Shown here one piece after another: positions 5,096 to 45,179 of a stretch of 64,000 bases of DNA. Made by a program: the position numbers and the translations under genes. How positions within the stretch are numbered: position 1 is the first letter of the stretch; every line of letters starts with the position of its first letter. The stretch comes from Agrobacterium vitis (lineage in GTDB: Bacteria; Pseudomonadota; Alphaproteobacteria; Rhizobiales; Rhizobiaceae). Under the pieces are notes generated by a model, which was not told the DNA's origin, ran no database searches, and was given only the letters and a program-made list of their open reading frames with translations. The DNA is taken from the NCBI RefSeq assembly GCF_013337045.2, contig NZ_CP118261.1, positions 558,001-622,000 of the forward strand, in the 5' to 3' direction.

Positions 5096-5800
5096 TCATC
5101 TGCCCTGACGTTTGAGATCCTGGGCGAGGTGTGAAACAACTTCAGTGAAAGCGTTGGGACAGAGACCAAAAACGGGTTCAACGGTCCGGGTTTCTCCGCG
5201 GATGTCGCCGATCAGATTGAAAATTGCAGCTTCGCCCATGGATAAAGCTGGTATGAACTCGACGCCCTTGATCACGGCACAGGCCATATTCAACAGTGAA
5301 CTGCATTTCCACTTGGTGGCGATCCGGTCTGCCTTCAGTCGTGACTTGAAGCGGTTGAACGCCTCAACGTGGGCGAGGATTACGGCGGCCAGCGCATCAT
5401 AGAGCGGTTGCGAACCGCGACCGAGCTTGAAGCTGCCGAGTGCATGGCGGGTGAGGAAAGTCGCCTTGGTGGCCAGCAGGCATTCAACGCCAATGATCTT
5501 CGGCAGGTTATTCAGCACCTGCTGCGCTTTGCGGCACGAGCATGTGACCATGGAGGTATGGTCTTCCTGACTGCTCTTGGTGCGGATGGTGTGGACGACC
5601 GAAGGAACGGCTAATATCTTGTTTTGTGAAGCCATGGCGGTGGCAGTTGGGGAGATAATGCCGTAACCGTAGTTAAGCCCGATGGGCTTTCCGGCGAGGT
5701 TGGGCGACAGGCCATAATTCAGCGTGGTGTCGCACAGCGCAAACAAACGCCGCTTGGAAATATTGCTGATTTCAATCAGGGCATTGGCCAGAAGATCCAT
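5096..5800 (-). pseudogene. Chimera of histidine ammonia-lyase C-terminal half and IS6-type transposase tail
   Basis: The 234-codon frame has two unrelated halves. Residues 1 to about 148 match the C-terminal part of histidine/aromatic amino acid ammonia-lyases: EISNISKRR, NYGYGIISPTATAMASQNK, SSQEDHTSM, and LGRGSQPLYDAL near the end. The N-terminal half with the Ala-Ser-Gly MIO cofactor motif is missing, and a TAG lies in frame just upstream of the ATG, so no active lyase can be made. Residues about 150-232 instead resemble the C-terminus of IS6-family DDE transposases: RFKSRLKADR, ACAVIKGVEFIPALSMGEAA and IFNLIGDIRGETRTVEPVFG. The join is in frame and uninterrupted. It most likely marks an old insertion followed by deletion. 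Whether the frame is translated is unknown. Confidence 0.7.
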
Positions 5801-16485: not shown

Positions 16486-16496
16486 GGGCAGTCTCC

Positions 16497-17564
16497 CTAT
16501 ACGGCTTCGGCGATGGTCGGCTGCGGCGCATGCTGGCGCGCAAGCCGCGCGAGATGCGGCAGACCGCCCATGACGAGATCGTAATCCTGCACGAAGTCGA
16601 TCAGGCATGCGATTTCATCGATCCCCGCCGCAGCCAGCGCCTGCACTGTCTCTGCGGTGCTTTCCGGCGTGCCGATGAGCGAGCGGCCCTTGATGAAGCC
16701 CTCAACCCCGAACTCGATCAGGCTGTCGAGATCGTCCCGGCTGAAATTCTCGAGCGCGATATCAAGACCCATGCTGCGGGCCAGCCCTTCGAGCAGATGA
16801 TAATGGGTTCTGAGATAATCGCTGAAGGGGCCTTTGACATTGGCTTTCACGGTTTCGACATCACCGCCGAGATAGGTGTGCACCATAATGCTCACGGTGC
16901 CCGCAGCCGGATCAAAACCGTTCTTTTCCAGCGACCGGCGGTAGGCGGCGATCTTGGGTGTCAGGCTTTCCAATGTCTCACCGAGCAGCGCCGTCAGCAC
17001 GTTGATGCCGCGACGGCCCGCTTCCACAAAGGTTTCCATGGACTGGCACGCCACCCAGAAAGGCACGCGCGGTTGCACCGGGCGCGGCAGTGTCTTTGCC
17101 TCAACGGCATTGCCTTCCGCATCCTCAAAGGTCAGCGTCTCGCCAGCAAGCAGCTTGGTGACCTGATCATAGCTCCGCCACATCAGGCTGCGGCGGCTGC
17201 CATGCGGCTCACGCGACAGCACGAATTCGTTGCGCGTCCAGCCCGACGCAATCGCCACACCCACACGGCCTTGCGAGAGATTGTCCACGACGGCAATTTC
17301 TTCTGCCACGCGCACGGGATGATGGAGCGGCAGAACAATGCTGCCGGAGCGCAATTGCACCTTCTTCGTCACCATGGCCAGTGCGGCATGGATCATCGAC
17401 GGATTGGGATAGAGGCCGCCGAAGGCATGGAAATGGCGCTCCGGCACCCAGAGTGCGCTCAGGCCATTGTCATCGGCAAACCGTGCGCTGTCCATCAGCA
17501 GCCGATAGCTGTCACCGTTCGTAGCGGAGCCATCGCCATCGAAATAGAAGAGGCTGAATTTCAT
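16497..17564 (-). CDS. fbnE: FMN-dependent luciferase-like monooxygenase, MupA/Atu3671 (FbnE) type
   Basis: 355 residues forming a single bacterial-luciferase TIM barrel. MKFSLFYFDGDGSA, WVPERHFHAFGGLYPNPSM and VRVAEEIAVVDNLSQGRVGVAIASGW are hallmarks of the natural-product LLM subfamily, which acts on chains tethered to carrier domains. It belongs by sequence style to the group named after MupA and Agrobacterium Atu3671, which I recall as FbnE of the fabrubactin pathway, proposed to oxidise the PKS-derived beta-keto backbone and set off a Favorskii-like rearrangement. AAGGA nine bases upstream supports the ATG. It is free-standing here and lies between PKS1 and NRPS1 (44 bp and 11 bp gaps), which fits action on the PKS1/NRPS1 intermediate. 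Confidence 0.88.
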   Translation of the reverse strand: MKFSLFYFDGDGSATNGDSYRLLMDSARFADDNGLSALWVPERHFHAFGGLYPNPSMIHAALAMVTKKVQLRSGSIVLPLHHPVRVAEEIAVVDNLSQGRVGVAIASGWTRNEFVLSREPHGSRRSLMWRSYDQVTKLLAGETLTFEDAEGNAVEAKTLPRPVQPRVPFWVACQSMETFVEAGRRGINVLTALLGETLESLTPKIAAYRRSLEKNGFDPAAGTVSIMVHTYLGGDVETVKANVKGPFSDYLRTHYHLLEGLARSMGLDIALENFSRDDLDSLIEFGVEGFIKGRSLIGTPESTAETVQALAAAGIDEIACLIDFVQDYDLVMGGLPHLARLARQHAPQPTIAEAV

Positions 17565-24648: not shown

Positions 24649-24813
24649 CAATATAAACACCCTTTTGACGACTGCTTAATCAAAATTCACAATCCAATCT
24701 GAGGTTGTAATGACTCTCAAAATAGCTCCGGACAAAGTCTTCCCAAAGACGGCCGTTTCCACACAGAAATCGTGTGGGCAACAGGTCCGGTGCGCGCTGC
24801 CGGAGGCATGCCG

Positions 24814-27800
24814 ATGACTGCTCCCGAAACGGTGGAAGCGCTGCTGTCGCGCCTGTCGGAAAAAGGCATCCGCATCACATGCGTGGATGGGCGTCTGCGA
24901 CTGTCCGGCTCCGAGAGCGTGCTCACGCAGGATATCACCGACGCGATCCGCGCCCGCAAGGCGGAGATTATTGCGAACCTCTCCCTGGACGCAGCGAGCC
25001 AAGACGCGACACATAACGAGACGATCCCGGCCCGTCATGCGGACGCACCGCCACTTTCTTTTGCCCAGCAGCGCTTGTGGTTTGTGGAACAGATGATGCC
25101 GGATGCTGGCCTTCACCACATATCGCTCGCTGTTGAGGCGCTCGGCAGCATCGATCTTTCCGCATTGCAGGCAGCGCTTCAGGCCGTCGCAGAGCGCCAT
25201 GCAATCCTGCGCACCCGCATCAATATGCGGGATGGCATGCCCTCTCAACGCATCATCGCCGACAGCGATATTCCGCTGCAATTGATCGATCGGCAGGACG
25301 ATATGCCCGATGAGGCGGAAATCGACAGGATACGGCAAGAGGAAGCGCGGCGACCCTTCGATCTTGCCTGCGAGCCACCGCTGCGTCTCACGGCAATCCG
25401 CCTTGGCTCCGAGCGAACCCTTTTGCTGCTGACGCTGCACCACATTGCCGGGGACGGTTGGTCGATGGATGTGCTGCTTGGCGATCTCTCAGTGATCTAT
25501 CAGGCCAAGGTGTCGGGCGTTGATCTTGATTTGCCAGCGCTTCCCATCCAGTACGGCGACTTCGCTGCATGGCAGAGCGACCATCTGGCAGGCCCGGCGC
25601 TTGAGCGGTCCCTCGCCTTCTGGACCGATCATCTCGAAGCTCCGCTTCCCGCCACGCAATTGCCGGGGGATTTCACCCGGCCACCTGTTCAGGCCAATGC
25701 CGGAGCCTTGCATTCTATCGCTTTCGATGCTGGCACGACGGCCCGGTTGAAAGCGCTTGCGAAAGCGGAAGGTGCCACGCTGTTCGCCACGCTGTTTACG
25801 GCCTTCAACACCCTCGTCTATCGCTATACCGGGCAAAGAGATCTGGTGATTGGCACACCCGTCGCCAACCGCCGTCAACGGGAAACGGAAGGGTTGATTG
25901 GCCTCTTCGTCAATCCGCTGCCGGTCCGCTCACGGCTTACGCCCGCAGCGAGTTTCCGCGAGACGCTGCGCCAAAGCCAAGCGACCCTCTGGTCGGTGCT
26001 TGACCATCAAGACCTGCCTTTTGAGCAATTGGTGGAAGCACTGAAGCCGGAGCGCGATCCCAGCGTCCATCCGCTTTTCCAGCTGAAATTCCAGCTCGAT
26101 ACTGAGCCGCAGCAGAGGGTCGGACTTTCGGGCCTCACGCTGACCCGCCTGCCACGGCGCGACGGTGTTGCGAAACTCGATCTCAGCCTCAACCTGATCG
26201 ATGCCGGAAGCACGATCCATGGCACTTTCGAATATGACACAGCCCTTTCCCGCCCTGAGACAATCGCGTCTCTTGCCGCCCATTTCGGTGTGCTGATCGA
26301 GGCGATTGCCATTGAGCCGGACACGGCCCTCGCTGTTCTCCCCTTGCTGGAAGCCGAGGAGCGTCAGCGCCAGATCGTCAGCTGGAATGCAACGGCAACG
26401 CCTTTTGATGAGAAGGCCTTTTTCCACACGGTTTTCGAGGCTCATGCGGCCCGCACACCAGACGCAATCGCGCTTGTTCATATCATTGATGGCGAGCGAC
26501 ACACACTGACCTATGACGACCTGAACCGACGCGCCAACCAGATCGCACACCACTTGCGTGGACTCGGTGCGGGTCCAGAGACCATTGTTGCCATCGCGCT
26601 TGAGCGTGGCTTCGATATGATTGCCGCATGGTTCGGCGTGCTCAAGTCTGGTGCTGCCTATCTGCCGCTTGATCCGGCCTATCCGCCGGAACGCCTCGCC
26701 ATGATGCTCTCAGATTCGCAAGCCCGTTTGGTTCTCACCGAGAGCCGCCGGACATTGCCGGAGACGGTAACCCGCATTGATCTCGATACAGATTGGCCAC
26801 GGGATGCGGCGACGGACAATCCTGATCTCGTCAACAGGCCCGATCACCTTGCCTATATCATCTACACCTCAGGATCGACCGGGCGGCCAAAAGGCGTGCT
26901 CGTCGAGCACAGGGGTCTCGTCAACCTGACGCAACACAAGATCCGTATTGGCGGGGTGAAGCCGGGCGATTGTGTGCTCCAGTTCTTCTCCTTCTCGTTT
27001 GATGCCTCGATTCCAGAACTCGTCATGGCCCTCGGCGCGGGCGCGTCACTGCTGCTGCTGCCCGCCAGCGAGCTTCTGCCCGGACCGGCGCTTGCCGAAC
27101 ACCTGAAAACGCAAGCCGTGACGCATGTGACAATGACACCCTCCGCGCTTATCGCGCTGCCAGCGGGCGATTATCCAGCACTGCGCATGGTGCTGACCGG
27201 CGGCGAAGCGCCAACGCCCGAATTGATCGAACGTTGGGGAACGGGGCGGCTGTTTATCAACGCCTATGGCCCGACGGAAACCACGGTTAATGCGAGCATG
27301 GTTCCCTGCGGCAACGGTCATCCCATTGAGGCGACCTTGCTGCCCGCTGCCAACAAGCAACTCTATGTGCTCGACGCCAACCTAGAGCCGGTTCCAGTCG
27401 GTCAACCGGGTGAACTCCATATCGGCGGGCTTGGCATTGCCCGTGGCTATCACGGTCGCCCGGCATTGACAGCCGAGCGCTTCGTGCCCGATCCATTTTC
27501 GCCAACAGGCGGCGTGCTCTATCGAACAGGCGACCGTGCCTGCCAACTCGTGGATGGCCGCATCCGGGTGCTTGGCCGCCTCGACGATCAGGTGAAAATC
27601 CGCGGCTATCGCATTGAGCCGGGTGAAATCGAAGCCATGGTGCTGGCGCATCCCACCATAGTGGCTGCGGCAGTGGCAATCCACGAGATTGATGGTGAAA
27701 AGCGCGTCATTGCCTACGGCGTCGCCAAGGATGCAACCCCTATCAGCGCCGTGGACATGAAGGCATTCCTCGCCGCACGTCTGCCCCGCTACCTCGTGCC

Positions 27801-29334
27801 GGATGCCTTTGTCTGGCTTGATCGCTTGCCACTCACCGTCAATGGAAAGATCGACACCAAAGCACTTCCGCTTCCGGATCTGGCGCAACAGGCTGGCCGT
27901 CCGCCGGAAGGAGAGACGGAAAAAGCAATTGCTGCGATTTTTGCGCAAATCCTCGGGTGCGCGCCTGTTTCTGCCACGGATGATTTCTTCGCAATCGGCG
28001 GTCACTCGCTGCTGGCCACGCGGCTATCGGCGCTTGCCAAATCGGCCTTCGGCCTCGACATCGCCATTATCGATCTCTTCGAGGCCCCGACGGTCGAAGC
28101 ACTGGCGGCAAGAGTGAGCAACCGAAACCAGAGCCTCATGACGGAAGAGGAGATGTGCCGGGCCGATACCGAGCTTGATGCGGCCCTCCGCATTCCGGCG
28201 CGGATTGTGTCTACTCATCCTTTGAGCCATGTGTTTCTCACCGGAGCGACAGGCTTTCTGGGCGCGTATCTGCTCAGCGAATTGCTCAAGGACACGTCTC
28301 GCACAGTCTCGTGCCTCGTCCGGGGCGTGACTGGGGCGGATCGCCTGCGCCAATCGCTTCAATCCTACGGTCTGTGGCGGGATGAATTTGCGGAACGTAT
28401 CAGAGCTCTGCCGGGCGATCTCTCACAACAGAGGTTCGGGCTTTCTGATGCTACGTACACTGCACTTGTCGAAAGCGTAGACGCCATCATCCACAATGGT
28501 GCGGAGGTTCATCACCTGCATCCTTATGAACGCCTCCGCGCTCCCAATGTTGGCGGCACGGTCGAGGCGATCCGGCTGGCGGCGGCAGGCCGGGGACGGC
28601 CCCTGCATCTTATCTCCTCGCTCAGCGCCCTGACACGGCGAGGCGCTGGCGAGGCCATTGCCGAAAGTGCTACGATCCGGGACTTTCCCTTGCCTTCTGG
28701 CGGATACAACCAGACCAAATGGGTTGCGGAGCATCTTGTGGAGGCCGCCAAAGAGCGCGGTCTTCCGGTGACGATCTACCGCCCCGGCGCGATTTCGGGC
28801 GACAGCCGCACCGGCACCTTTAACAAAGCCGACATCCTGTGCAGGCTCATGCAGGGCTATCTGCGCTCAGGCCTTGCGCCGGAGGGTGACACCCCGCTGG
28901 AAATGCTTCCGGTCGATACCGTTGCGCACGCGATCATCGCCCTTGCGGACAGGCCGTCATCGCTCAGTCAAACCTTCCATCTGGTCCATTCCTCTCCGGT
29001 CTCGTCTGCGCTGCTGTTTGAGGCGGCAGCCGCCGAAGGGCTCCATCTGCGACGCATTCCCCGGCTGGAATGGCGTGCCGAACTTGATCGCATTGCGCGG
29101 GAAGAGACCGATCATCCGCTTTACCCGCTGATGGGCCTTTTCGAACAACGACCTGCCAGTTCATCGCAGGGCGCAATCCGCACCGTTGAGCGCAGTGAAA
29201 CACATCGCGCGCTGGCGGCTGTATCGATTGTCGAGCCCGCGCTCGATCTTCGCCTTTTTCGCTCCTATCTGCGCGCTTTCATTGTCAATGGCGCGCTCAA
29301 CCCTTCCAAAGAAAATGAGCAGAGATATGCTTGA
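24814..29334 (+). CDS. NRPS module with terminal thioester reductase (docking-C-A-T-Red), NRPS2
   Basis: 1506 residues from the ATG at 24814, with GGAGG seven bases upstream; earlier ATGs fit that site less well. An N-terminal TubC-type docking domain (VEALLSRLSEKGIRITCVDG, residues 5-55) precedes condensation (HHIAGDGWS), adenylation (IIYTSGSTGRPKG, NAYGPTETTVN), carrier (DDFFAIGGHSL) and a reductase with the nucleotide loop FLTGATGFLGAYLL and catalytic Y-x3-K (YNQTKW). Such reductases release the chain as an aldehyde. By-eye adenylation residues D-A-P-S-V-T-A-V-N resemble aromatic (Tyr/Phe) codes, fitting tyrosine or DOPA as last residue. Although first in the operon, it should act last. 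The methyltransferase and aminotransferase immediately downstream would modify the aldehyde end. Confidence 0.95.
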   Translation: MTAPETVEALLSRLSEKGIRITCVDGRLRLSGSESVLTQDITDAIRARKAEIIANLSLDAASQDATHNETIPARHADAPPLSFAQQRLWFVEQMMPDAGLHHISLAVEALGSIDLSALQAALQAVAERHAILRTRINMRDGMPSQRIIADSDIPLQLIDRQDDMPDEAEIDRIRQEEARRPFDLACEPPLRLTAIRLGSERTLLLLTLHHIAGDGWSMDVLLGDLSVIYQAKVSGVDLDLPALPIQYGDFAAWQSDHLAGPALERSLAFWTDHLEAPLPATQLPGDFTRPPVQANAGALHSIAFDAGTTARLKALAKAEGATLFATLFTAFNTLVYRYTGQRDLVIGTPVANRRQRETEGLIGLFVNPLPVRSRLTPAASFRETLRQSQATLWSVLDHQDLPFEQLVEALKPERDPSVHPLFQLKFQLDTEPQQRVGLSGLTLTRLPRRDGVAKLDLSLNLIDAGSTIHGTFEYDTALSRPETIASLAAHFGVLIEAIAIEPDTALAVLPLLEAEERQRQIVSWNATATPFDEKAFFHTVFEAHAARTPDAIALVHIIDGERHTLTYDDLNRRANQIAHHLRGLGAGPETIVAIALERGFDMIAAWFGVLKSGAAYLPLDPAYPPERLAMMLSDSQARLVLTESRRTLPETVTRIDLDTDWPRDAATDNPDLVNRPDHLAYIIYTSGSTGRPKGVLVEHRGLVNLTQHKIRIGGVKPGDCVLQFFSFSFDASIPELVMALGAGASLLLLPASELLPGPALAEHLKTQAVTHVTMTPSALIALPAGDYPALRMVLTGGEAPTPELIERWGTGRLFINAYGPTETTVNASMVPCGNGHPIEATLLPAANKQLYVLDANLEPVPVGQPGELHIGGLGIARGYHGRPALTAERFVPDPFSPTGGVLYRTGDRACQLVDGRIRVLGRLDDQVKIRGYRIEPGEIEAMVLAHPTIVAAAVAIHEIDGEKRVIAYGVAKDATPISAVDMKAFLAARLPRYLVPDAFVWLDRLPLTVNGKIDTKALPLPDLAQQAGRPPEGETEKAIAAIFAQILGCAPVSATDDFFAIGGHSLLATRLSALAKSAFGLDIAIIDLFEAPTVEALAARVSNRNQSLMTEEEMCRADTELDAALRIPARIVSTHPLSHVFLTGATGFLGAYLLSELLKDTSRTVSCLVRGVTGADRLRQSLQSYGLWRDEFAERIRALPGDLSQQRFGLSDATYTALVESVDAIIHNGAEVHHLHPYERLRAPNVGGTVEAIRLAAAGRGRPLHLISSLSALTRRGAGEAIAESATIRDFPLPSGGYNQTKWVAEHLVEAAKERGLPVTIYRPGAISGDSRTGTFNKADILCRLMQGYLRSGLAPEGDTPLEMLPVDTVAHAIIALADRPSSLSQTFHLVHSSPVSSALLFEAAAAEGLHLRRIPRLEWRAELDRIAREETDHPLYPLMGLFEQRPASSSQGAIRTVERSETHRALAAVSIVEPALDLRLFRSYLRAFIVNGALNPSKENEQRYA

Positions 29335-30205
29335 ACAAGCAAGCAAATACGATCACTGGGCGTGGCTTTACAACCGCACACTTGGCCCCCGCTACGGCGC
29401 ATACAAGATCGGTCCGATTGAGCGTGTGGTGCTGCCCCATGTGCCAACTGGTGGTGCTATTCTGGATCTGTGCTGCGGCACCGGCCAGCTCGCGGCGGCT
29501 CTCGCTGAGCGCGGTTTTAACGTGACTGGCCTCGACGGCTCCGCCGACATGCTCCGCCATGCCCGCGAAAACGCCCCGTCGGTGACCTTCACGGAGGGCG
29601 ATGCCTGCAATTTCACCTTTGACACCCCCTTTGACGCCGTGCTCTGCACCAGCGCCTCGCTCAATCACATGCAAAGCGTCGATGATCTGGCCGCCGTGTT
29701 TTCGAGCGTCAGCCGCGCATTGACGCCGGGCGGCATCTTCGTCTTCGACGTCAACCATCCGGCCCAGATGTCGCGCTACTGGCGCGGCCATCCAACGGAG
29801 GGCGAGATCAACACCGACTTCGCGTGGTTGATTACCCCGCAATATGACCCGGCAGCAAACCGGGGTGCCTTCACCGTGGAGATTTACCGCCGTCCCGATG
29901 CGCATCCCGTTTCCGTGCTGGATCGGCTGTTCGTCCGATTGGCGCGGTTCAGGCGTATCCGCCTAGCGCTCCTCTCCCGCTTCAGCCGCTTGCGGACCCG
30001 GTGGGAGCATCATTCGGTCGTCAACCGAATCTGGGGTCACGATCTCAACGCCATGTCACGCGCCCTGCATGAAAGCGGCTTTTCCACCGAACTGCGCAGC
30101 ACGCAAGGCGGGCCGGTCGATGACAGCCATGCCGCCTATTTCTTCTGCCGGAAAGCGCCCTCGGCCGAAATGCAGGCTGAGACTGCAAAGGAGACCGCCC
30201 TATGA
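29315..30205 (+). CDS. Class I SAM-dependent methyltransferase
   Basis: 296 residues from ATG 29315 (ATG 29327 is an equal alternative); both overlap the end of the reductase NRPS gene, indicating translational coupling. Motif I for S-adenosylmethionine reads ILDLCCGTGQLAAALAERG, with the acidic GLDGSADML after it and EGDACNF further on. The rest is helical with a basic patch (VRLARFRRIRLALLSRFSRL). In the anachelin/fabrubactin scheme a nitrogen of the terminal diamine carries two methyl groups, so N,N-dimethylation is the proposed job; this is inference from context. It overlaps the aminotransferase gene by four bases (ATGA). Confidence 0.88.
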   Translation: MSRDMLEQASKYDHWAWLYNRTLGPRYGAYKIGPIERVVLPHVPTGGAILDLCCGTGQLAAALAERGFNVTGLDGSADMLRHARENAPSVTFTEGDACNFTFDTPFDAVLCTSASLNHMQSVDDLAAVFSSVSRALTPGGIFVFDVNHPAQMSRYWRGHPTEGEINTDFAWLITPQYDPAANRGAFTVEIYRRPDAHPVSVLDRLFVRLARFRRIRLALLSRFSRLRTRWEHHSVVNRIWGHDLNAMSRALHESGFSTELRSTQGGPVDDSHAAYFFCRKAPSAEMQAETAKETAL

Positions 30206-31602
30206 ATGCGTTGACGAGCAACCCAACGCCCGCCCAAGCGGCAGCCGCCATCATAGCCGCGTTCAACAGGAAGACAGAAAAGTCCAAGGCCGCAAGTGCG
30301 CAAAATCGGCACGTCCTCGCTGATAAATCAGCAATCGGCGTTCCCTTCTCGCTGATGGCCAAGGAGGCGCTCTACCCGATTGTGGTAGACCGGGCGGAGG
30401 GAACAGTACTGCACGATATAGACGGCAATCGCTATATCGATGTGCTGATGGGGATGGGCATCAACCTCTTTGGCCACAATCCGCCCTTTATCCGCGACGC
30501 GATTGAGGCACAGCTTGCCAAGGGATTTGCGCTTGGGCCGCAATCTGATCTGGCAGGCGAGACTGCTGCACTCTTTTGCAAGCTGACGGGCAAGGAAAGA
30601 GTAACCTTTACCAATACCGGGACCGAAGCCGTGATGACCGCCCTGCGGCTGGCGCGGGCGGCCACCGGGCGGCGGAAGATTGCGATGTTCGAGGGGTCTT
30701 ATCACGGCCATTCGGATCAGGTTCTGAACCGCATTGCTGGTCCCGATGATGCCCGGACCGTGCCCGCCTTTCCCGGCATTTCGCCCGCGACGGCCGAGGA
30801 TGTCGTTTTGCTCCCCTATAACGATCCGCGTGCACTGGAAATTCTGGAGCGGGATGGCGAAACCTTTGCCGCCGTGCTGGTTGAGCCGGTGCAAAGCCGC
30901 AATATCGACGTCCAGCCCCGTGCCTTTCTGCACGCGCTGCGCGACGTGACGCAGCGAACAGGTGCTGTCCTCATCTTCGACGAAATGATCAGCGGTTTTC
31001 GCGTGGCACCCGGCGGCGCGCAGGACCATTTCGAAGTTGAGGCGGATCTGGCGACCTATGGCAAGATTGCCGGTGGCGGCTTGCCGCTGGCGCTGATTGC
31101 GGGCAGCAACCGTTTGATGAACCATATCGACGGCGGCCCCTGGTCTTTCGGGGATGAATCTGTTCCCCCAGCCCAGCCGACCTTTTTTGCCGGAACCTAT
31201 TGCCGTCATCCTCTGGCACTTGCGGCAGCGCGCGCAGCCGCGACGTACATGCTCCAGCAGGGCCGGTCTTTGCAGGATGGCCTCAACGCACGCACGCGCA
31301 GCCTTGTCGAGCGCCTCAATACATCGCTTGCGGCAGCGCGGCTTCCCGTTGTCTTCACGCAGTTCGGCTCCTTCTTCTCGATTGCGGTCAACCGCAGCCG
31401 CATTCCGCCGCTTGCACTGGGATTGCTGTCGCTCGAACTCCTCACCGCTGGCATTCACCTGCGCAGCGGCGACAAGGGCGGCTTCCTTTCCACCGCCCAT
31501 TCGGATGGCGACATCACAGCCATCCACGATGCCTTCCTGAACGGCCTGCAATCGCTTGCAGGTTTCGGCCTCATCCCCCTATCCGATGGAACAACACCAT
31601 GA
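30202..31602 (+). CDS. Class III PLP aminotransferase (glutamate-1-semialdehyde aminomutase-like)
   Basis: 466 residues. This is a fold-type I, class III enzyme of the GSA-aminomutase-like set found as domains or free enzymes in hybrid PKS/NRPS clusters. Visible motifs are [46 protein letters not shown] (Asp260 to the pyridine nitrogen) and YGKIAGGG with the PLP lysine at 288. The first 45 residues are an extra Ala-rich extension. It is coupled by ATGA overlaps to the methyltransferase before it and the MbtH gene after it. The likely reaction is transamination of the reductase-released amino aldehyde to a 1,2-diamine. A role on a beta-keto chain is the alternative. Confidence 0.92.
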
Positions 31603-31826
31603 GCAACCAGGACCAAACCATTGATTTTCCACACCGCGTCGTCATCAGCGACGAGGAGCGATACTCGATCTGGCCGACCTACAAGACCATCCCCCTTGGC
31701 TGGCGCGATGGCGGCTTCGAGGGGTCGAAACAAGCCTGCCTAGACCACATTGCTGCGGTTTGGACCGATATGCGCCCGCTTTCACTTCGTCGCCAGATGG
31801 ACGGCGACATGTCCGTCAACCAATAA
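31599..31826 (+). CDS. mbtH: MbtH-like NRPS accessory protein
   Basis: 75 residues. MbtH proteins bind adenylation domains and are needed for folding or activity of many of them. The invariant tryptophans and core are present: [35 protein letters not shown]. The start ATG overlaps the aminotransferase stop (ATGA). It is the only MbtH in the window and may serve several of the five adenylation domains. Confidence 0.96.
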
Positions 31827-31838: not shown

Positions 31839-32417
31839 TTGAGCCAGTATCAACGCGCCCTCGACCCGGATGCCGCGCGCGAGGAGAGCCGTCCTGTCGA
31901 AAGCCCGGTTCGCGGCCAGATCACCCTGAAAGAGGTCAAGGCATCTGGTCCAATGGAGGCACCAGCCGATGATGGCTGGCTCGACCTTCCGCTTCCTGAC
32001 GGACTGCCCGCTGAAACCCCGCTCAGCGAGATCGAGAAACGCCGTATGCATGACGTGCTTTCCGGTCTGCTTGAGGCGATGAAGCTTGACCATCCGCAGA
32101 TCACCGCACAGTTGGACGCGCTGCTGACTGAGCTGGGCAAGGCGGCAGGCGAAAGGCCGGAAATCGAAACCACGGGGCTGCCGCTCACGCCCTTTCAGGC
32201 AACGGACTATGATCGCTATTTCCGCGTCAACCGTCAGTCTGCGGAAGAACCCGCCGTCGCCATGGTGCGGAGCCTCATTCAGACGGTGCGCGCCGTCACG
32301 CAGCTCTTTGCCCGCAGCCCGGACCTTCCCGTCGTCCACGTCCGCCACCAGATGGAAGGCTTTGAAAGCCACGCACATTTGCTCGCCCGGACCTTCGGTC
32401 TGGAGCCGCTTCGATGA
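31839..32417 (+). CDS. Uncharacterised protein coupled to the putative haem oxygenase-like protein
   Basis: 192 residues, starting at a TTG that is strongly supported by AAGGAGG seven bases upstream; no ATG fits. I do not recognise a family. The first 60 residues are charged and proline-rich, probably disordered. The rest is helical: EIEKRRMHDVLSGLLEAMKL, QLDALLTELGKAAGER, then LPLTPFQATDYDRYFRVNRQ and a C-terminal helix rich in histidines (VHVRHQMEGFESHAHLLARTF). Its stop overlaps the next ATG (ATGA). The two proteins together have the length (about 378 residues) of single-chain haem-dependent tyrosine hydroxylases, so this could be a partner subunit or the N-terminal portion of a split enzyme. 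That is a hypothesis. Confidence 0.6.
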   Translation: MSQYQRALDPDAAREESRPVESPVRGQITLKEVKASGPMEAPADDGWLDLPLPDGLPAETPLSEIEKRRMHDVLSGLLEAMKLDHPQITAQLDALLTELGKAAGERPEIETTGLPLTPFQATDYDRYFRVNRQSAEEPAVAMVRSLIQTVRAVTQLFARSPDLPVVHVRHQMEGFESHAHLLARTFGLEPLR

Positions 32418-32974
32418 TCGCTCTCAGCCCTCCCTCTCCCTATGCGATCTGGCGGGAGTTTCACTGGGCATTCTTTTTGAACGTTCAGGGGCTCATTGTT
32501 TCGCTGCGCCGGTTCCAGCTGCTGGTGGAGCGCGGTCAGCTCACGTCTGCCGAGCAGGAGCTTAATACCGCCTCGACGCTGCTTGTCTCCTCGGCTGCGT
32601 CCATGGAACTCGCCGCGAGTTTTCCGAAAGACGTCTATGAGGCGACGGTGCGCGCCTCCATGACCCAGCCGCATGTGGAATCGGACGATTTTAGCGGCCT
32701 GATGTCGTGGGATCATGCCGTCCTCATCAGCATCTGGCGGGATCTCCGCCCGATTTTTGAAACGCTGCCGAATGAGCTCGTCAGCGCCCATTCCAAGTTT
32801 ATTGCGGCCTATAAATATCTCGCCGAGAGCCATGCGGGCGTCTGCTCGCGCTTCGTGGATAGCGGAAGCCTGCGCTTCGAGGACCGCAATGCCGTCGATA
32901 CGCTGCGCCGCTTTGAGCGCGGCCGGCTCGGCCTCATCGACCCCAAGGGCAAAGGTTGCCCGTTTCATTCCTGA
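32414..32974 (+). CDS. Putative haem-dependent aromatic oxygenase-like protein (possible tyrosine hydroxylase)
   Basis: 186 residues, all helical, without signal peptide. The layout recalls the tryptophan dioxygenase superfamily: an aromatic first helix (YAIWREFHWAFFLNVQGLI), a middle helix bundle, then VRASMTQPHVESDDFSGLMSWDH. Near the C-terminus stands His126 and then SHAGVC, giving His140-x3-Cys144. SfmD, a haem-dependent tyrosine hydroxylase, binds haem through an HXnHXXXC motif. Making L-DOPA from tyrosine is exactly the step a Dmaq-type siderophore needs, and no other tyrosine hydroxylase gene is seen in the island. Family assignment is by motif and context only and could be wrong. It is coupled to the previous gene and lies 67 bp before PKS2. 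Confidence 0.5.
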   Translation: MIALSPPSPYAIWREFHWAFFLNVQGLIVSLRRFQLLVERGQLTSAEQELNTASTLLVSSAASMELAASFPKDVYEATVRASMTQPHVESDDFSGLMSWDHAVLISIWRDLRPIFETLPNELVSAHSKFIAAYKYLAESHAGVCSRFVDSGSLRFEDRNAVDTLRRFERGRLGLIDPKGKGCPFHS

Positions 32975-33041: not shown

Positions 33042-36000
33042 ATGAATGACCTGTCCGCCGCCCCTCTCTCTGATGACAACAGGCATCATATTGCCGTGAT
33101 CGGCATGGCTGGCCGCTTTCCCGGAGCACCGGATGTCGAACGCTTCTGGCAAAACCTTGTAGATGGTGTGGAATCCATCGAGCGCCTCTCGCCGGAGGTT
33201 TTGAAGCAACGCGGCATCTCTGCGGAAATGGCGGCATTCCCGGATTTTGTCGCCGCCAGCACACCGCTGCCGGGTGCGGATCGCTTCGATGCGGGGTTTT
33301 TCGGCTATAGCCCTGCCGAGGCTGAAATTCTCGATCCGCAGCAGCGTGTCTTCCTCGAATGCGCCTGGCAGTCGTTGGAAGCCGCCGGTTATGTGGGTGA
33401 TCGTCACAAGGGACCGATTGGCGTTTTCGCTGCCGCTGGCATCAACACCTATGTCTTCAACCTGCATGACAATAGCCGCATCCGCGAGACCGTCAGCCCC
33501 TATGAGCTGTTCGTCGGCAATGACAAGGACTTTCTGGCCACCCGTACAGCCTTCAAGCTGAACCTGCGAGGCCCGGCCATCACCGTGCAAACCGCCTGCT
33601 CCTCCTCGCTCGTTGCCGTCCACATGGCCGCGCAAAGCCTGCTATCCGGCGATTGCGACATGGCGCTGGCGGGCGGCATTGCACTGTCGCAATCCTCCGG
33701 CTACCGCGCTCGCGAGGGCGGAATCCTGTCTCCTGATGGCCATTGCCGCGCTTTTGATGCGGCCTCAAGCGGCACGGTCCCCGGCAGCGGGGTGGGCATC
33801 GTGGTTCTGAAACGGCTGGAAGATGCGCTTGCCGATGGCGATACGATAGACGCCGTCATCCTTGGCTCTGCGATCAACAATGACGGTGCGTTGAAGGCAA
33901 GCTTCACCGCGCCACAGGTCGATAGTCAGGCGGCGGTGATCGCCGATGCGCAGGCCATGGCAGGCGTGCGCGCTGACACCATTGGCTATATCGAGGCCCA
34001 TGGAACGGGCACCAAACTCGGCGACCCGATAGAGGTTGCAGCACTGACCAAGGCGTTTCGTCGCGATACGCAGCGTCAGGGCTTCTGCGCGCTCGGCTCC
34101 GTCAAAACCAATATCGGCCATCTCGACACCGCCGCCGGTATTGCAGGCTTCATCAAGGCGGTGTTGGCCCTGAAAAACCGGCGGATTCCGGCAAGCCTCC
34201 ACTACGAGAATGCGAATCCGCAAATTGATTTCGCAGCCAGCCCCTTCTTCGTCAATCAACGTCTGCGCGATTGGGACAACCAGATCGGCACGCGCCGCGC
34301 AGGCGTAAGTTCCTTCGGCATTGGCGGGACCAATGCCCATGTTGTGCTGGAAGAGGCCCCACCCAGCCCGGCATCAAAGGCAGGCAGCGGCCCGGAACTG
34401 TTGCTTTTGTCGGCACGAACCGAGGAGCAGCTTGCAGCCAGCAGCGAGGCCCTCGCAGCACACCTTACCGCAGGCTCAGATCATACAGCCGCCCCGACGC
34501 TTGCGGATGTTGCCCACACTCTGCGTCATGGCCGTCGTGATTTTGCCAAGCGCCGCTTCGTCATCGCACGCGATGCCAAAGAGGCTGTCAACAACCTGCG
34601 CAACCTCTCTCAAATCGGCACCGCCGCAGGCGAGATAGCGCAAGCTGTTTTCCTGTTTCCCGGTCAGGGCAGCCCGTATACGGCGATGGGCAAGGCGCTT
34701 TACGCCGACCTGCCAGCCTTTCGTACCCCCTTTGACGCCTGCGCATCTGAATTGGATCGGCTGATGGGGATCAACTTCAAAGCCTGCCTGTTTTCCAATG
34801 CGGATGACCTTGCCAGCACGGCATTTGCCCAACCGGCGCTGTTTGCCGTTGAATATGCGCTTGCGCAAGCCTTGATGAGCAACGGCGTAAAACCCGTGGC
34901 CTTGCATGGCCACAGCATTGGCGAATATGTCGCCGCCTGCCTTGGAGGTGTCTTCGACCACGAAACAGCGCTTCAACTCGTTGTTGCACGCGGGCGGTTG
35001 ATGCAGGCGCAAGCACCCGGTGCCATGCTCGCGGTGATGCATGCGGATGAACCGATCTCGCCATGGCTTGACGGGGTCATTACGCTGGCCGCTGCCAATG
35101 CACCCGGTGTCAGCGTTGTCTCCGGCCCGGTGGAAGCAATCGCAAGCCTACAAGTGCGCCTGAAAGACAAGGGCATTGCCGCACGCCTGCTGAAAACCTC
35201 CCACGCCTTCCATTCGCCGATGATGACGAATGCTGCGGCACAGTTCCGCGATGTCGTTGCAGGCGTTCGCCTGTCGGCGCCGCAAATTCCTGTGATTTCC
35301 AATGTCACGGGAACATGGATGACGGCACAGGATGCCACCGACCCGGACTATTGGGCGCGTCACCTGTTGCAGCCCGTCCGCTTCGAGGACGGAACACGCA
35401 CGCTGCAATCCCTTGCAGCACCTGTTTTCATAGAAATCGGCCCCGGTCGCGCACTCGGCACGTTGAGCGCTGCGGCGGGCGTGGATGCAAGCCGGATTGT
35501 GGCGACGCTTGCAGAAGGCAAGGATGAATCAGGGCAGGTTTTGTCTGCTGTCGGTCAGTTCTGGCAATTGAACGGCGTTCTGGATTCAGCCGAAGTGGCT
35601 GGTCGGCGGCGCGTACGGCTTCCGACCTATCCGTTCCAAAGTGAGCGTTACTGGGTCGATGCGGATAGCGAGCCTGCCACGCCCAAGAGGACGGCCGCGA
35701 AGGTTGAAGGCCCCGGCCTCTACCGCACCAATTGGCGGCGTGCGCAATTGAGCCACAGCCCTAATCGATTGAAGGGCCGCGTGCTTGTTTTTGACGATGG
35801 TCAGCTTGGCTCCATCCTTGCCTCTGAGCTTGAGCGGAGCGGTGCTGAACCCTATCGCGCAATGATCGGCACCGGTTTCAGTGAACCAGACTTCCGCTGC
35901 TTCAGCCTCCGCCCCACGATGAGCGAAGACTACGCCAGCCTTTTTGATAGCCTTGATGAGCGGGGAGCAAGCCCGGACCATATCGTCTTCGGCTGGCCTC

Positions 36001-37454
36001 TCACACCTAACGCACAAGAAGCGCCGGAAACTGCTGCACAAGCCCTTCTGGCGCTGGTGCGGGAACTGGCAAAGAACGACCGCGCGGTCACTCTGACGCT
36101 TCTGACTCGGTCGGCAGCCGATGTCACGGGTCTGGAAGACCTCGACATTCCGCAGGCTCTGACTGCGGGCACTCTTCAGGTGATCGCCCAAGAATATCCA
36201 TCGCTCCATTGCCGTCATATCGACATCGACGCTGCACGGCCTGTTGATATCGCGAGGCGCATTCGCGACGCCCTGTCGGGGAAAGACGATGTGCTCGCCT
36301 TGCGCGGCGCGCATCGCTGGCTGCCGGAAACGGAACGGTTTGACGTGCCGCAAGGCGGCCCGGATTTCAAGCGGAACGGCGTCTATGTGGTGATCGGCGA
36401 TATCGTTGATGGCGTTGGCAAGACCTGGGTTGATGCTCTGTCTGGGCTCGGCGCAGCCGTCGCTCTGCTTCAAGACTCTACGGCACCGGCTTTCGAACAC
36501 CCGGCTCGTCTCAAACGGCAGCTCGATTGCGGCGATGCCGCCGCCTTGAAAGGCGCTCTGGACGATGTTTTGGCAGAACTGGGCCGGATCGACGGCATCT
36601 TTCTGAGCCTGCCGCAGTCGAACCATCAATCCGCCGCGCTGATTGGTGAGCTGGCGGATGCCCATTGGGCCTATAATATCGCGAGCAAACTGCGCCCGGT
36701 TCATGCGCTCAGTGAAGCTGTGGCGAAGCGGAAAATCGGCTTTTGCTGCGTTCAGTCCTCGCTCTCAACCCTCGTTGGCGGGCTTGGCCTTGGTGCCTAT
36801 GCCGCCACGCACCACGCCATCGACCGGATTGTCGCCGAAGAGAACAAGAACGGCACCACGCCATGGTTCGCGATTGGCTATCCACTGATCGAGGCAAATC
36901 CCGGCACCACCTTGCAGGCAACGGGCCGTGCGAACGCCTTCGCGATATCGACGGAGGCCGCATGGGATCTGACGCGATGCCTGATTGAAAACGGCGCAAC
37001 CGGACAGACCATGCTTTCGGGTGGGGCCATTCCCCCGGTCGCGTCCGACATCGACGCGCAAGAACCAGCCGCCAATGATGGCGGGCGTGGACGCCCCGCA
37101 CTCAGTGTCGCCTACCGCAAGCCGGGCAATGACACCGAAGCGAGGATCATCGGCATTTTCGAAGAGATCCTTGGCCTGTCACCCATCGGGGCCGATGACG
37201 GCTTTTATGAACTCGGCGGCCATTCCCTGCTCGCCATCCGCGCCGTTGCCAAACTTCGGGAGGCCTTCCCCGTCGATATTGCCATGCGCGAGCTGCTTTT
37301 TGACAATCCGACAGCTGCGGCCATCGCCCAATCGATTTTGGAGCGCATGACGCAGAAGACCGACCTTTCTGCCCTCGCCGATCTTCTCAACGAGGTTGAC
37401 ACCCTGTCCGACGCCGATGTGAGCAGGCTTCTCGCCGGAGGAAATGCACAATGA
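33042..37454 (+). CDS. Type I polyketide synthase, KS-AT-degenerate KR-ACP (PKS2)
   Basis: 1470 residues, with AAGGAA a few bases before the ATG. The ketosynthase has the normal TACSSSLVA (Cys186), EAHGTGTKLGDP and KTNIGHLDTAAG. The acyltransferase has GHSIGEYVAAC and HAFHS, implying malonyl-CoA. The ketoreductase-like region is clearly degenerate: the NADPH loop reads VIGDIVDGVGKTW, and the catalytic Tyr is followed by ATHHAID where active enzymes have Asn. The beta-keto group is therefore probably kept. The ACP reads DGFYELGGHSLLAIR. The C-terminal tail LADLLNEVDTLSDADVSRLL is a docking helix, and the gene overlaps NRPS3 by four bases, so the product passes to NRPS3. Confidence 0.95.
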   Translation: MNDLSAAPLSDDNRHHIAVIGMAGRFPGAPDVERFWQNLVDGVESIERLSPEVLKQRGISAEMAAFPDFVAASTPLPGADRFDAGFFGYSPAEAEILDPQQRVFLECAWQSLEAAGYVGDRHKGPIGVFAAAGINTYVFNLHDNSRIRETVSPYELFVGNDKDFLATRTAFKLNLRGPAITVQTACSSSLVAVHMAAQSLLSGDCDMALAGGIALSQSSGYRAREGGILSPDGHCRAFDAASSGTVPGSGVGIVVLKRLEDALADGDTIDAVILGSAINNDGALKASFTAPQVDSQAAVIADAQAMAGVRADTIGYIEAHGTGTKLGDPIEVAALTKAFRRDTQRQGFCALGSVKTNIGHLDTAAGIAGFIKAVLALKNRRIPASLHYENANPQIDFAASPFFVNQRLRDWDNQIGTRRAGVSSFGIGGTNAHVVLEEAPPSPASKAGSGPELLLLSARTEEQLAASSEALAAHLTAGSDHTAAPTLADVAHTLRHGRRDFAKRRFVIARDAKEAVNNLRNLSQIGTAAGEIAQAVFLFPGQGSPYTAMGKALYADLPAFRTPFDACASELDRLMGINFKACLFSNADDLASTAFAQPALFAVEYALAQALMSNGVKPVALHGHSIGEYVAACLGGVFDHETALQLVVARGRLMQAQAPGAMLAVMHADEPISPWLDGVITLAAANAPGVSVVSGPVEAIASLQVRLKDKGIAARLLKTSHAFHSPMMTNAAAQFRDVVAGVRLSAPQIPVISNVTGTWMTAQDATDPDYWARHLLQPVRFEDGTRTLQSLAAPVFIEIGPGRALGTLSAAAGVDASRIVATLAEGKDESGQVLSAVGQFWQLNGVLDSAEVAGRRRVRLPTYPFQSERYWVDADSEPATPKRTAAKVEGPGLYRTNWRRAQLSHSPNRLKGRVLVFDDGQLGSILASELERSGAEPYRAMIGTGFSEPDFRCFSLRPTMSEDYASLFDSLDERGASPDHIVFGWPLTPNAQEAPETAAQALLALVRELAKNDRAVTLTLLTRSAADVTGLEDLDIPQALTAGTLQVIAQEYPSLHCRHIDIDAARPVDIARRIRDALSGKDDVLALRGAHRWLPETERFDVPQGGPDFKRNGVYVVIGDIVDGVGKTWVDALSGLGAAVALLQDSTAPAFEHPARLKRQLDCGDAAALKGALDDVLAELGRIDGIFLSLPQSNHQSAALIGELADAHWAYNIASKLRPVHALSEAVAKRKIGFCCVQSSLSTLVGGLGLGAYAATHHAIDRIVAEENKNGTTPWFAIGYPLIEANPGTTLQATGRANAFAISTEAAWDLTRCLIENGATGQTMLSGGAIPPVASDIDAQEPAANDGGRGRPALSVAYRKPGNDTEARIIGIFEEILGLSPIGADDGFYELGGHSLLAIRAVAKLREAFPVDIAMRELLFDNPTAAAIAQSILERMTQKTDLSALADLLNEVDTLSDADVSRLLAGGNAQ

Positions 37455-40400
37455 ACGAACTTTTCGCAAAGATCGCCGGGCTTTCGCCAGAGCGGCGGGC
37501 GCTGCTGGAACAGAAGCTGAAAGCACAGGGCATCACGGTTCCCGCCCCCTCCGGCATCCAGCCTCGGGCGGATCGTGAGGCTGCGGTTCCGCTGTCATCG
37601 GCGCAAAAACGCCTCTGGTTCATGCAGCAGCTGGAACCCGGCACCGTTGCCTATAACATGAACCTCGCACTTCGGCTGAAAGGCCCGCTCGATCGCGCAG
37701 CCCTGTCTCGCGCCTATGCCGCCCTGATTGCTCGGCACGAACCCCTGCGAACGCGATTTACGATGGGCGAGGATGGCCAGCCGCAGCAAATCGTCGAGGC
37801 ATCCGGCGCGGCTGATATTGGCTATCACGATTGCCGACAGCATCCAGAGCCGGAAAAGGAAGCCCGTCTTCAGCTCAAAGCATTTGTCGAGACGCCCTAT
37901 GATCTCACCCGCCCGCCGATCCGCGCGACGCTGGTTGCAATAAACGATGACGAGCATGTGCTGGCGCTCGGCATGCATCATATCATCAGCGACCGCTGGT
38001 CGATGGGTGTCTTTGCCCGTGATCTCTCAACGCTCTACCATGCCGAAGCCACAGGAACAGCAGCAACACTCGCGCCCCTTCCGGTGCAGTTTGCCGATTG
38101 GACGCTCTGGCAGCGCGATTTACTGGACGGACCCGCCCTTGCCAACCAGCTCGCCTACTGGACAGAAAGCCTTGCGGGCGAGCTGCCCGTACTGGAATTG
38201 CCATTGGATCGGCCACACAGCTTGAGCGCGAGCTTTAGCGGCGCGCATCTTCCCGTTCTGATCGACCGGGCATTGTCGCTCAGGCTGCGCGCACTTGCTG
38301 CCGAGCAGAATGTCAGCCTGTTCACATTGCTGCTTGCCGCCTTCAACGTGCTCTTGCATCTCTATACCGACAGCGACGATATCATCCTTGGCAGCGAGGT
38401 TGCCAACCGAGACCGGCCCGAGACACAAACCATGATGGGGCCGCTGGTCAATACGCTCGTCTTCCGCAACGACCTGTCCGGCGATCCGGCCTTCACGGGC
38501 CTGCTCCAGAAGGTAGCCGATGCTGTGCGCCGTGGCCTTGCCCATCAAGATATTCCGTTCGAGCGCCTTGTCGAAGCGATCAATCCAGAGCGCTCGCTCT
38601 CGGACCTGAACCCGCTCTTCAACGTGAAATTCGACATTCAGCACAGCATTGCCCCGCCGCCGGGCCTGCATGGACTGACGATTGAACCCTATCCGCTACG
38701 CGAAGTGGCAACAAAATATGACTTGCGCTTCAACCTCGAAGACGACCAGCCGGACATCAAGGGCAAGATCGAATATTCGAGCCAGATTTTCAATGAGAGC
38801 ACCATCGCCTCTATGCTTGCCCGTTTTGAGCGCCTGCTGGAGCTTGTGGTGCGCGACCCCTCGCGGCGGCTCTCCACACTTTCTCTGCTGAAACCTGAGG
38901 AAGAAGCGGCCATCATCGCTTCCGGTTCCGGTCCAGTGCGGGATTATCCGGTGGACGAATGCCTGCATGATCTCTTCCTGAAACAGGTCGAGCAAACGCC
39001 GGATGCGGACGCGGTGACCGATGGCGACCTCACCTGGTCCTACCGCGACCTCGAAGCGCAGTCTTCGCGCATTGCCGCAAGTCTGGTGGCCGCTGGTGTG
39101 AAACCCGGCGACCGGGTGGGCATTTGCATGCGCCGCTCACCCCGGATGATCGCAGGTATCCTTGGCATCATGCGTGCAGGTGCGGCCTATGTGCCGCTCG
39201 AGGCCGATTATCCACCAAGCCGCCTCGCCTTCATTGCCGAGGATAGCGGGATTACCATCCTGCTCACTGATCACCGCCCATCCTTTGTCACGCAGGCGCA
39301 AACCCTCGTTGACGTCACGACATTGCCGGACATCCGACTGGAGGTGCCGCCCACAGTTTCACCGAACCATCTCGCCTACATCATCTACACATCCGGCTCG
39401 ACGGGCAGACCCAAGGGTGTCGCGATAGAACATCGCTCTGTCGTCACCTTCATGTATTGGGCGCGGGAGCGGTTCACCCGCGAAGAGGTGGCGCGCATGC
39501 TGGTGCCAACCTCGATCAGCTTCGACCTGTCGATTTTTGAGCTTTATGCGCCCCTCGTCCTCGGCGGCACGCTCGTTGTCGCAGATCATTTTCTGGCACT
39601 GCCGCAGCTTGCCGCCAAGGTTGATGTGACTTTCATCAATACGGTCCCCAGCCTCCTGCAAGAACTGTTGCAAGAACACAGATTGCCAAACAGCGTGCAG
39701 ACTGCAACCTTCTGCGGCGAGCCATTGCCAGCAGCGCTTGTCGCCATCCTGAAACGCGATTATCCGAACCTGCGTATCCTCAATCTCTACGGCCCTTCCG
39801 AGGATACCTGCTTTTCAACGGAAGTCCCGTTACAGGGCGATCATTATCAGGGCGGCGTCGTACCCATCGGCAAGCCATTGCCAAACACGCAAGCCTATAT
39901 TCTCGACCGCACTGGCCGCCTTCGCCCGCCGGGTCTTTCCGGCGAGCTTTATCTCGGCGGTACGGGCCTTGCACGCGGCTATTTTGGCCGACCTGAGCAA
40001 ACCGCTGAGCGGTTCATTGCCAACCCGTTCTCGAGTGAACCCGGCTCCCGTCTTTACCGGACCGGGGATCGCATCCGCCGCCGGGCCGATGGCAATCTGG
40101 AATTTTGCGGGCGGCTTGACCATCAGGTCAAAGTGCGCGGCTTGCGCATTGAAACAGGCGAGATCGAGCACAATCTCGAACAGATTACCGGCGTCGAAAA
40201 GGCGGTTGTGGCTGTCACGCAAGGCACTGATCGGCAGCTTGCCGCCTTCATCGAACCCCAAGACGGCGTAAGACTTGACGAAACCGAGCTGCGCCGGGCG
40301 CTGTCCGATATCCTCCCTGTGCATATGGTGCCGACGCTCTGGTGCTTCTTGCCGCGCCTGCCACAGCAGCCGAACGGCAAGATTGATCGCGCAGCACTGC

Positions 40401-43400
40401 CATCGCTGGCCGCAACAGTCGCCACCGGGTCCAGCCCGCCAGAGACCGAAACGGAACAGCGTGTCGCTGATGCATGGGCCGATGTGCTGGCCATCGATTC
40501 GATCAGCCGGGATGACAATTTCTTCCGGCTTGGCGGTCACTCGCTGCTGGCCATGCGCATGATTGCCCGGCTGTCGTCATCGCTTCCGACAAATGCCGTG
40601 TTGCGAAAACTGTTTGAGTTTCCCCGCCTCAGGGATTTCGCCGCCGCCCTTGCGCGTGACGAGACACCGATGGCGGCACCTTTAAGCGCCATCGATGCCC
40701 TCCCGGATGGTGCGCCGATACCTCTGTCCTTTGCCCAGCAACGGCTTTGGACATTGGCCGAGCTGGAGCCAGACAGTGCCGCCTACACGGTTCCCGCCGC
40801 AATCCGCTTTCATGGCGCGCTTGATCTGGAAGTGCTGCAACACGCGTTCACAGCCCTTACCGCACGCCATCCGGCATTGCGCACGCGGATCGTCAATCGC
40901 GATGGCCAACCTGCTGTCGAGATCGGTGCGACCGACATTCCAGACATCGCAATCGTAGATGTGAATGAGGCCACCCTGCCAGAGGCGCTTGCCGCTGCAT
41001 GCAGGCAGCCGTTCGACATGGCGACGGGTCCGCTCTTCCGCGCCCGGATTTTCCGTCTCTCCACTGACGAGCATGTTGTTTTCGTAGCACTCCACCACAT
41101 TGTCTCGGATGCGCAATCGCTTCAGCTGATGCTGCGGGATCTGACGCGGTTCTATGATGCTGGCCGACAGGGCAAAGTGGCAGACCTTCCACCGCTTACC
41201 CTGACCTATGGTGATTTTGCCGCTTGGCAGCGAAAGCAGCCGCTGGGCGAGCAGATCGACTATTGGCGCCGCCTGCTGGAACATGCCCCCCCGCTTCTGG
41301 AACTGCCGACGGATTTTCCACGCGGTGCGCGCCAAGAGTTCAAGGGCGGGAGCATTCCATTCCATCTCGATCATGCGCTCACGGCCCGTCTGGTCAATTT
41401 TGCCCATGAACGGGACGCCACACCTTTCATGGTGCTTCTCTCGGCCTTTTCGACCCTGCTATCGCGTTATTCCGGCGCGTCCGATGTCGTCATCGGAACC
41501 CCGGTATCCGAGCGGCCAAACCGCGCGCTGGAGGATGTCATCGGGCTGTTCGTCAACACGCTGGCGCTGAAACTGACGCATGATGCTGCAACAAGCTTCG
41601 AACAGCAAGTCGCGGCCACACGTTTGCTCGTTCTGGATGCCTTCCGCCATCAGGACGCGCCGTTTGAATGCGTGGTCGATGCCCTCTCAGTCGAGCGAAG
41701 CTGGAGCCACAATCCCGTGTTCCAAGTGATGGTCACCTGGCAAGCCGACGAGCCGCATAGCCCATGCCCCGATGGCCTGACGGTTACCCCGGTGGTGCTC
41801 GCACAGGAAACGTCGAAGGTCGATCTGACGCTGGATCTGCGCCATCGCGGCGATCAGTTTTCCGGCACCTTGATCTATCGCAGCGATCTCTTCCGCCAAG
41901 AGACGATCCACCACATGGCAGAGGCTTTCACGGCCTTGGTCGAGGCTCTTCTATCGGCCCCTGAGCGAGCACAGGTCGAAATAGACGGACTGCCCGAGCG
42001 CCAGCGCCAGCAGATCGCCGCTTGGAACGCGACGGCAAAGACCTATGATGCGGTGCCAGCAAGCCTGCATGGTTTCTTTGCGCGTTCAACCGAGCGCACA
42101 CCAGATGCCATTGCCGTGACTGATCGGAACAGGAGCGCCACCTATGCAGAGCTTGATCGGCAAGCGGAGGCGCTCGCCCGGCATCTCGCCTCCCTTGGCA
42201 TCGGACGCGGCAGTGCCGTCGGTATTTGCCTTGAACGTACCATCGACCTCATTGCTTCGATTCTTGCCGTCTTGAAGACGGGCGCTGCCTATGTGCCGCT
42301 CGATCCCAAATATCCGGCGGAACGGATCGCCTTTGTCGCAAAGGACGCAAGCCTCTCCCTGCTTTTGACGCAGGAGGAGCGCGATGACTTCGCCGACATC
42401 CGAACGCTCGATCCGACCACCATCTGGAACGGAACGCAGGCCGTCTCCGGGGCCCCTCTCCCCCATACGACCGAAGGCAGCGACCTCGCCTATCTCATCT
42501 ACACCTCCGGCTCAACAGGGCTGCCAAAGGGGGTTGCAATCGAACATCGCAATGCAGTTGCCTTCACACACTGGGCGCTCGACACGTTCCCGGCGGAAAG
42601 CTTTGTCGGAATGCTGGCGTCAACATCGGTCTGCTTCGACCTCTCCATCTTCGAAATTTTTGTGACGCTCGCCGCCGGTGGGCGAATCTTCATCGTTGAC
42701 GATCTTTTCGAACTGCCGGACGCAGAATTCGCAAACGAGGTCACGTTCATCAACACCGTGCCGACCCCGATGACCGAACTCATGCGGTTTGGCCCGTTGC
42801 CCGCTAAGGCAAAGACGGTCTGCCTTGCGGGCGAACCGCTGCCACCGAGCCTAGCACGCGCGATTCTGGACACTGGACAGGTCGAGGCGCTTTACAATCT
42901 CTATGGTCCCTCCGAGGACACAACCTATTCCACGGGATGCCGGATCGATGACGCGGGGCTGCCCATCCATATCGGCAAGCCCATCACCAACACCACCGCC
43001 CATGTTCTTGACGCAGCGCTCAATGAAGTGCCAATCGGTATGCCGGGCGAGCTTTATCTGGCGGGCGAGGGTATCGCACGCGGCTATCACAATCGCCCGG
43101 ATCTGACGGCGGAGCGCTTCTTGCCGAACCCGTTTGACAGGGCTGGCCAAGCCCCTGTGCTCTACAAGACCGGCGACCGCGTTCGTCGGCTGGCCGACGG
43201 CAATATCGATTATCTCGGCCGCGCCGACCGCCAGATGAAGATCAGCGGTTTTCGGATCGAACCGGGCGAGGTCGAGGCCGTGCTGATGCGCTATCCGGGC
43301 GTGACAGGTGCTGCCGTCGATGCCTGGCGGGACAATACCGGCTATGCCCGCCTCGCCGCCTGGATTGAGGTGGCGGCACCTGTCGGTAAGGCGGCGCTCT

Positions 43401-45172: not shown

Positions 45173-45179
45173 GGACACC

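Follow-up and report, generated by a model that had tools for sequence, protein, structure and literature searches.

Organization of the two-gene locus

We analyzed a 64,000-nucleotide stretch of Agrobacterium vitis DNA (assembly GCF_013337045.2, contig NZ_CP118261.1, positions 558,001 to 622,000 of the forward strand), hereafter called the window, and focused on two small open reading frames (ORFs) of 192 and 186 residues that lie in tandem within a siderophore operon. We assign the pair, with a probability of about 0.88, as the A. vitis FbnL and FbnM, an SfmD-type haem aromatic oxygenase whose coding sequence is divided between two coupled genes. The first ORF starts with TTG, seven bases after an AGGAGG sequence, and its stop codon overlaps the ATG start of the second in the sequence ATGA. 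The tandem arrangement described in the first-pass annotation was thus confirmed, as was the close association of the two ORFs, which were adjacent at all homologous loci (see below).

Pfam and NCBIfam named no family for either ORF. The sole NCBIfam match, to a beta-lactamase, was noise (E 0.03; 13.6 bits against a cut-off of 620). Precomputed tables placed PF27188.1 on all 71 FbnM-like and on 19 of the 21 FbnL-like database homologues. This entry is common to both halves although the FbnL and FbnM profiles show no similarity; descent of the two as duplicates of one another was unsupported (hhalign E 0.38).

Putative haem site and predicted fold of FbnM

FbnM matched the C-terminal half of SfmD (PDB 6vdp) with an E value of 7.3e-8 as a single sequence and of 9.2e-22 as a profile. 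The SfmD-type haem motif is defined as HxnHxxxC with n of about 38, and FbnM contains H101-x38-H140-x3-C144, the three residues aligning with positions 274, 313 and 317 of SfmD. The spaced motif was found in 70 of the 71 database homologues, and H126, H140 and C144 were invariant in all 25 rows of an alignment that includes the window sequence. His140 and Cys144 had already been recognized at first pass, but the first histidine of the motif proved to be H101 (n = 38) and not H126, which faces a proline in the SfmD alignment even though it is invariant in the 25 split-family rows.

The structure model of FbnM revealed a fold of the tryptophan dioxygenase (TDO) type that resembles TDO, IDO, PrnB and MarE, none of which matched FbnM by sequence at E 10 or better. 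SfmD was absent among the best 50 matches listed for the model, which does not speak against a relationship, and its sequence match is clear. Against TyrH (PDB 7kqr), the FbnM profile gave a weak E value of 1.6, compared with 0.00068 for a profile of the single-chain SfmD-like proteins.

FbnL as the probable counterpart of the N-terminal half of SfmD

FbnL had no sequence match in the PDB. Against single-chain SfmD-like proteins, its profile aligned colinearly and with moderate strength over the N-terminal half (hhalign E 2e-5, 76%), and its structure model overlaid residues 18-165 of SfmD. Since the second ORF matches the C-terminal half of SfmD and the first ORF probably the N-terminal half, the two genes together look like a divided SfmD; the predicted folds of both proteins came out in favor of the first-pass proposal. 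Among the 7997 candidates sharing the most words with a joined 378-residue query, no natural FbnL-FbnM fusion was found, the search returning one protein of 216 residues that covered 46% of the query.

FbnL was much less conserved than FbnM, with 19-95% identity to the window protein and five invariant columns, as against 46-95% for FbnM across the aligned loci. Together with the smaller number of homologues (21 versus 71) and the placement of the complete haem motif and the TDO-like core within FbnM, this would suit an enzyme in which FbnM hydroxylates tyrosine by itself, with FbnL as a separate accessory that, for instance, loads haem or stabilizes the protein, rather than as a structural half. 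We regard such an arrangement as quite improbable, because FbnL is colinear with half of the single-chain proteins, its model overlays SfmD, and it accompanies FbnM at all 26 loci.

Distribution and conservation of the pair

A genome scan yielded 63 stretches that fit the pattern, of which 26 were confirmed as loci with FbnM relatives. An FbnL-like ORF lay directly upstream of the FbnM-like gene at all 26, and at 24 a possible start codon of the latter overlapped the stop of the former by four bases. Because adjacency held at 26 of 26 homologous loci, the pairing is not due to chance. According to the record titles, the carriers were Rhizobiaceae, other alphaproteobacteria, Methyloversatilis, planctomycete and verrucomicrobial bins, and cyanobacteria. 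Within the genus, FbnM was present in 10 of 63 genomes, and in a draw of 385 genomes from the class it was found in the window's own genome only. The closest public matches to FbnM were A. vitis contigs and plasmids (99% in L001 and 98.9% in NZ_AP023270.1), in searches that may omit records very near the window's own.

Gene order was compared in three annotated records. Allorhizobium ampelinum S4 (pAtS4e) and A. tumefaciens 15955 (pAt15955) share the order of the genes that flank the pair. It was also kept in Gloeocapsa sp. PCC 7428, with small extra genes and with an unaligned hypothetical protein at the FbnL position.

Eleven of 200 relatives matched FbnM, one of them a single-chain protein, and the single-chain relatives that we met were of the more distant SfmD type. 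One of 425 residues (L038, 1456-2733, reverse strand) comes from another genus of the same family and adjoins an ORF whose sequence resembles a phosphopantetheinyl transferase. A second, of 354 residues and annotated as hypothetical (L044, 5509-7423; Azospirillum sp. B510, pAB510f), has two non-ribosomal peptide synthetase (NRPS) genes, a methyltransferase and a P450 as neighbors, perhaps a saframycin-like set. A shorter protein of 268 residues was found in Sulfitobacter sp. SK012 (L043, 5728-6534); its motif spacing is 34 rather than 38, and no NRPS was found among the annotated neighbors of its gene.

The surrounding siderophore cluster

The pair sits in a Dmaq-type siderophore cluster, in which a reductase-bearing NRPS, a methyltransferase and an aminotransferase are all present (Table 1).

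Table 1. Features of the fbnL/fbnM-like locus and of the surrounding cluster (window coordinates).
Feature	Position	Strand	Remarks
FbnL-like subunit, 192 residues, TTG start	31839..32417	+	Probable counterpart of SfmD N-terminal half
FbnM-like putative haem subunit, 186 residues, ATG start	32414..32974	+	Counterpart of SfmD C-terminal half; predicted TDO-superfamily fold
ATGA stop/start overlap, translational coupling	32414..32417	+	Four-base overlap possible in 24/26 loci
His101 codon, first His of H-x38-H-x3-C	32714..32716	+	Aligned with SfmD 274; invariant in 25/25 rows
His140-Ala-Gly-Val-Cys144 codons, HxxxC of haem motif	32831..32845	+	SfmD 313/317; invariant in 25/25 rows
NRPS, C-A-PCP with terminal reductase (NAD_binding_4)	24772..29334	+	Pfam; putative aromatic loading and aldehyde release
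S-adenosylmethionine (SAM) methyltransferase	29297..30205	+	Pfam Methyltransf_25, E 9.8e-23; putative Dmaq N,N-dimethylation
Class III aminotransferase	30202..31602	+	Pfam Aminotran_3, E 2.9e-50; putative Dmaq aldehyde-to-amine step
MbtH-like protein	31599..31826	+	Pfam MbtH, E 1.1e-17
Type I polyketide synthase (PKS), same operon as pair	33042..37454	+	Pfam
NRPS, same operon as pair	37451..45172	+	Pfam
Luciferase-like flavin monooxygenase	16497..17564	-	Pfam Bac_luciferase, E 2.3e-47; class fits FbnE, identity presumed

The start of the SAM methyltransferase is uncertain, its frame being open from 29186. The divergent side of the cluster encodes an AMP-binding protein with a carrier domain, which by our own reading is FAAL-like, together with the luciferase-like flavin monooxygenase, an NRPS and a MATE exporter; a further divergent PKS was recognized from its translation only. 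Genes for a TonB receptor and for a periplasmic binding protein lie 3' of the operon. The code of the terminal adenylation domain, read by hand at what we take to be the GrsA positions, was D-A-P-T-L-G-A-V-N; judged from these residues, an aromatic substrate would be compatible, which proves nothing. Elsewhere in the window, a 234-residue ORF (5099-5800, reverse strand) matched only the C-terminal part of an aromatic amino acid lyase (profile positions 331-464 of 466), and because of this restricted match it may be a truncated remnant.

Other possible sources of L-DOPA

As far as tested, no other tyrosine hydroxylase was visible in the window, as the first-pass annotation had stated. A six-frame search of the window's genome revealed one tyrosinase-family match (G000:C1:798336-798956) and one HpaB_N match (G000:C3:499270-500064), both outside the window, and a whole-genome search gave no match to the Biopterin_H and TDO families. 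These two matches leave room for a scheme in which a tyrosinase or HpaB-family enzyme encoded elsewhere provides L-DOPA, with FbnL/FbnM serving at a later stage such as the oxidative closure of the Dmaq ring. Within the genus, tyrosinase was indeed found in 9 of 10 genomes with FbnM and in 5 of 53 without it (Fisher test, kinship ignored). Across the 26 wider loci, however, a tyrosinase-family match was present in only six genomes and in none of the other 20, two of which are only 1.4 and 2.9 Mb in size (no completeness values are given, and HpaB was not searched for in the 26). The genus-level link consequently fails to mark tyrosinase as a required partner and is probably a clade effect, and the pair appears to be independent of tyrosinase. 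Moreover, SfmD, the nearest characterized relative, hydroxylates a tyrosine ring, and the accessible text of PMC12971057 assigns the tyrosine-to-DOPA step to FbnL/FbnM. We therefore consider this alternative scheme extremely unlikely.

Proposed function of the FbnL/FbnM complex

Sequence and profile matches, the predicted folds, the spacing of the motif and the gene neighborhood are all consistent with a haem tyrosine hydroxylase divided between two genes, and the proposal made at first pass is thus supported. We infer haem attachment, complex formation, activity and pathway order for A. vitis. FbnM would be the haem subunit, with a TDO-type helical core. His140 is the putative proximal ligand, Cys144 probably provides a single thioether anchor, and His101 is probably a labile sixth ligand; these roles are presumed from SfmD. 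FbnL would supply the counterpart of the SfmD N-terminal domain and so complete the enzyme. The complex may convert L-tyrosine to L-DOPA with peroxide, or with oxygen and a reductant. L-DOPA would then be loaded by the reductase-terminated NRPS (24772-29334) and released as an aldehyde, which neighboring enzymes would aminate and N,N-dimethylate before closure to the Dmaq iron-binding group.

The position of the pair between the MbtH and assembly-line genes might also indicate that tyrosine is hydroxylated on an NRPS carrier domain rather than as the free amino acid, a variant of the proposed role whose odds overlap with it. We judge this variant highly unlikely: the portion of PMC3851162 available to us reports that LmbB2 turns free tyrosine into DOPA, the SfmD title names 3-methyltyrosine, and L-tyrosine is named as the FbnL/FbnM substrate in the accessible text of PMC12971057. 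A broader role is rather doubtful, namely a stably split oxygenase in which one subunit holds covalent haem and its partner shapes the pocket, and in which the same complex hydroxylates tyrosine and later oxidizes the catechol for Dmaq ring closure. If this were true, no separate oxidase would be needed.

The A. vitis plasmid records annotate the two genes as 'siderophore biosynthesis protein' and 'hypothetical protein', and our analysis gives this pair an identity. It also offers an anatomy, in which a probable covalent-haem oxygenase is split into two polypeptides at the point where the N- and C-terminal halves of SfmD meet. The split pair is a handy object for probing the role of the N-terminal half in the SfmD family.

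Comparison with known systems

The idea of a split two-gene hydroxylase is not new, since a pair of this kind has been published before. In the part of PMC12971057 (2026) that was accessible, which cites Vinnik et al. (2021), FbnL and FbnM are described as a haem peroxidase made of two proteins, which converts L-tyrosine to L-DOPA and starts Dmaq formation, and FbnE as a flavin-dependent monooxygenase. A literature search found no further paper on this pair, and a search for 'Vitibactin' brought up none.

The window shares with the fabrubactin system of Agrobacterium fabrum C58 the two small proteins, a Dmaq-type siderophore cluster and a flavin monooxygenase. Compared with the A. tumefaciens/R. 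rhizogenes group (L008-L011), in which the C58 proteins were not included, the window FbnM was 64-65% and FbnL 39-41% identical. Although gene order is the same in A. tumefaciens 15955 (L041), the NRPS modules are divided differently: window positions 9940-16608 encode a two-module NRPS of 2222 residues, whereas the counterpart gene in 15955 has 3387 bases, and in the window region 37451-46871 one NRPS lies downstream of the PKS, where 15955 has two. The product of the window cluster may be a fabrubactin variant.

SfmD, the 3-methyl-L-tyrosine peroxygenase of saframycin biosynthesis (PDB 6vdp, 6vdq), is homologous to the pair over its C-terminal half and probably over its N-terminal half, and resembles it in the HxnHxxxC motif with n = 38 and in the TDO-type fold, which for the window FbnM comes from a model. 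In contrast to the two genes of the window, SfmD is a single chain, and the window substrate is likely tyrosine rather than 3-methyltyrosine. TDO, IDO, PrnB and MarE share the predicted fold of FbnM but act on tryptophan-type substrates.

The reaction of LmbB2/Orf13-type TyrH (PDB 7kqr) is the one proposed for the pair, and TyrH also shares a W-x3-H element; in the window pair this is W13-x3-H17, which all 25 aligned rows have. As stated in the accessible part of PMC3851162, LmbB2 carries an RWx3H element and, unlike the pair, consists of one polypeptide, which contains haem b. Its sequence match to FbnM is weak. In the available excerpt of PMC13394420, SfmD- and Orf13/LmbB2-related enzymes are described as histidine-ligated haem proteins, and the sections seen of PMC11791213 report that oxidized TyrH and SfmD yield product with H2O2, and the reduced enzymes with O2 and reducing agents. 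Finally, the accessible text of PMC4247773 attributes Dmaq formation in the anachelin cluster to genes 11-15, and its figure symbols include a reductase, a methyltransferase, an aminotransferase and 'TyrH, putative tyrosine hydrolase'.
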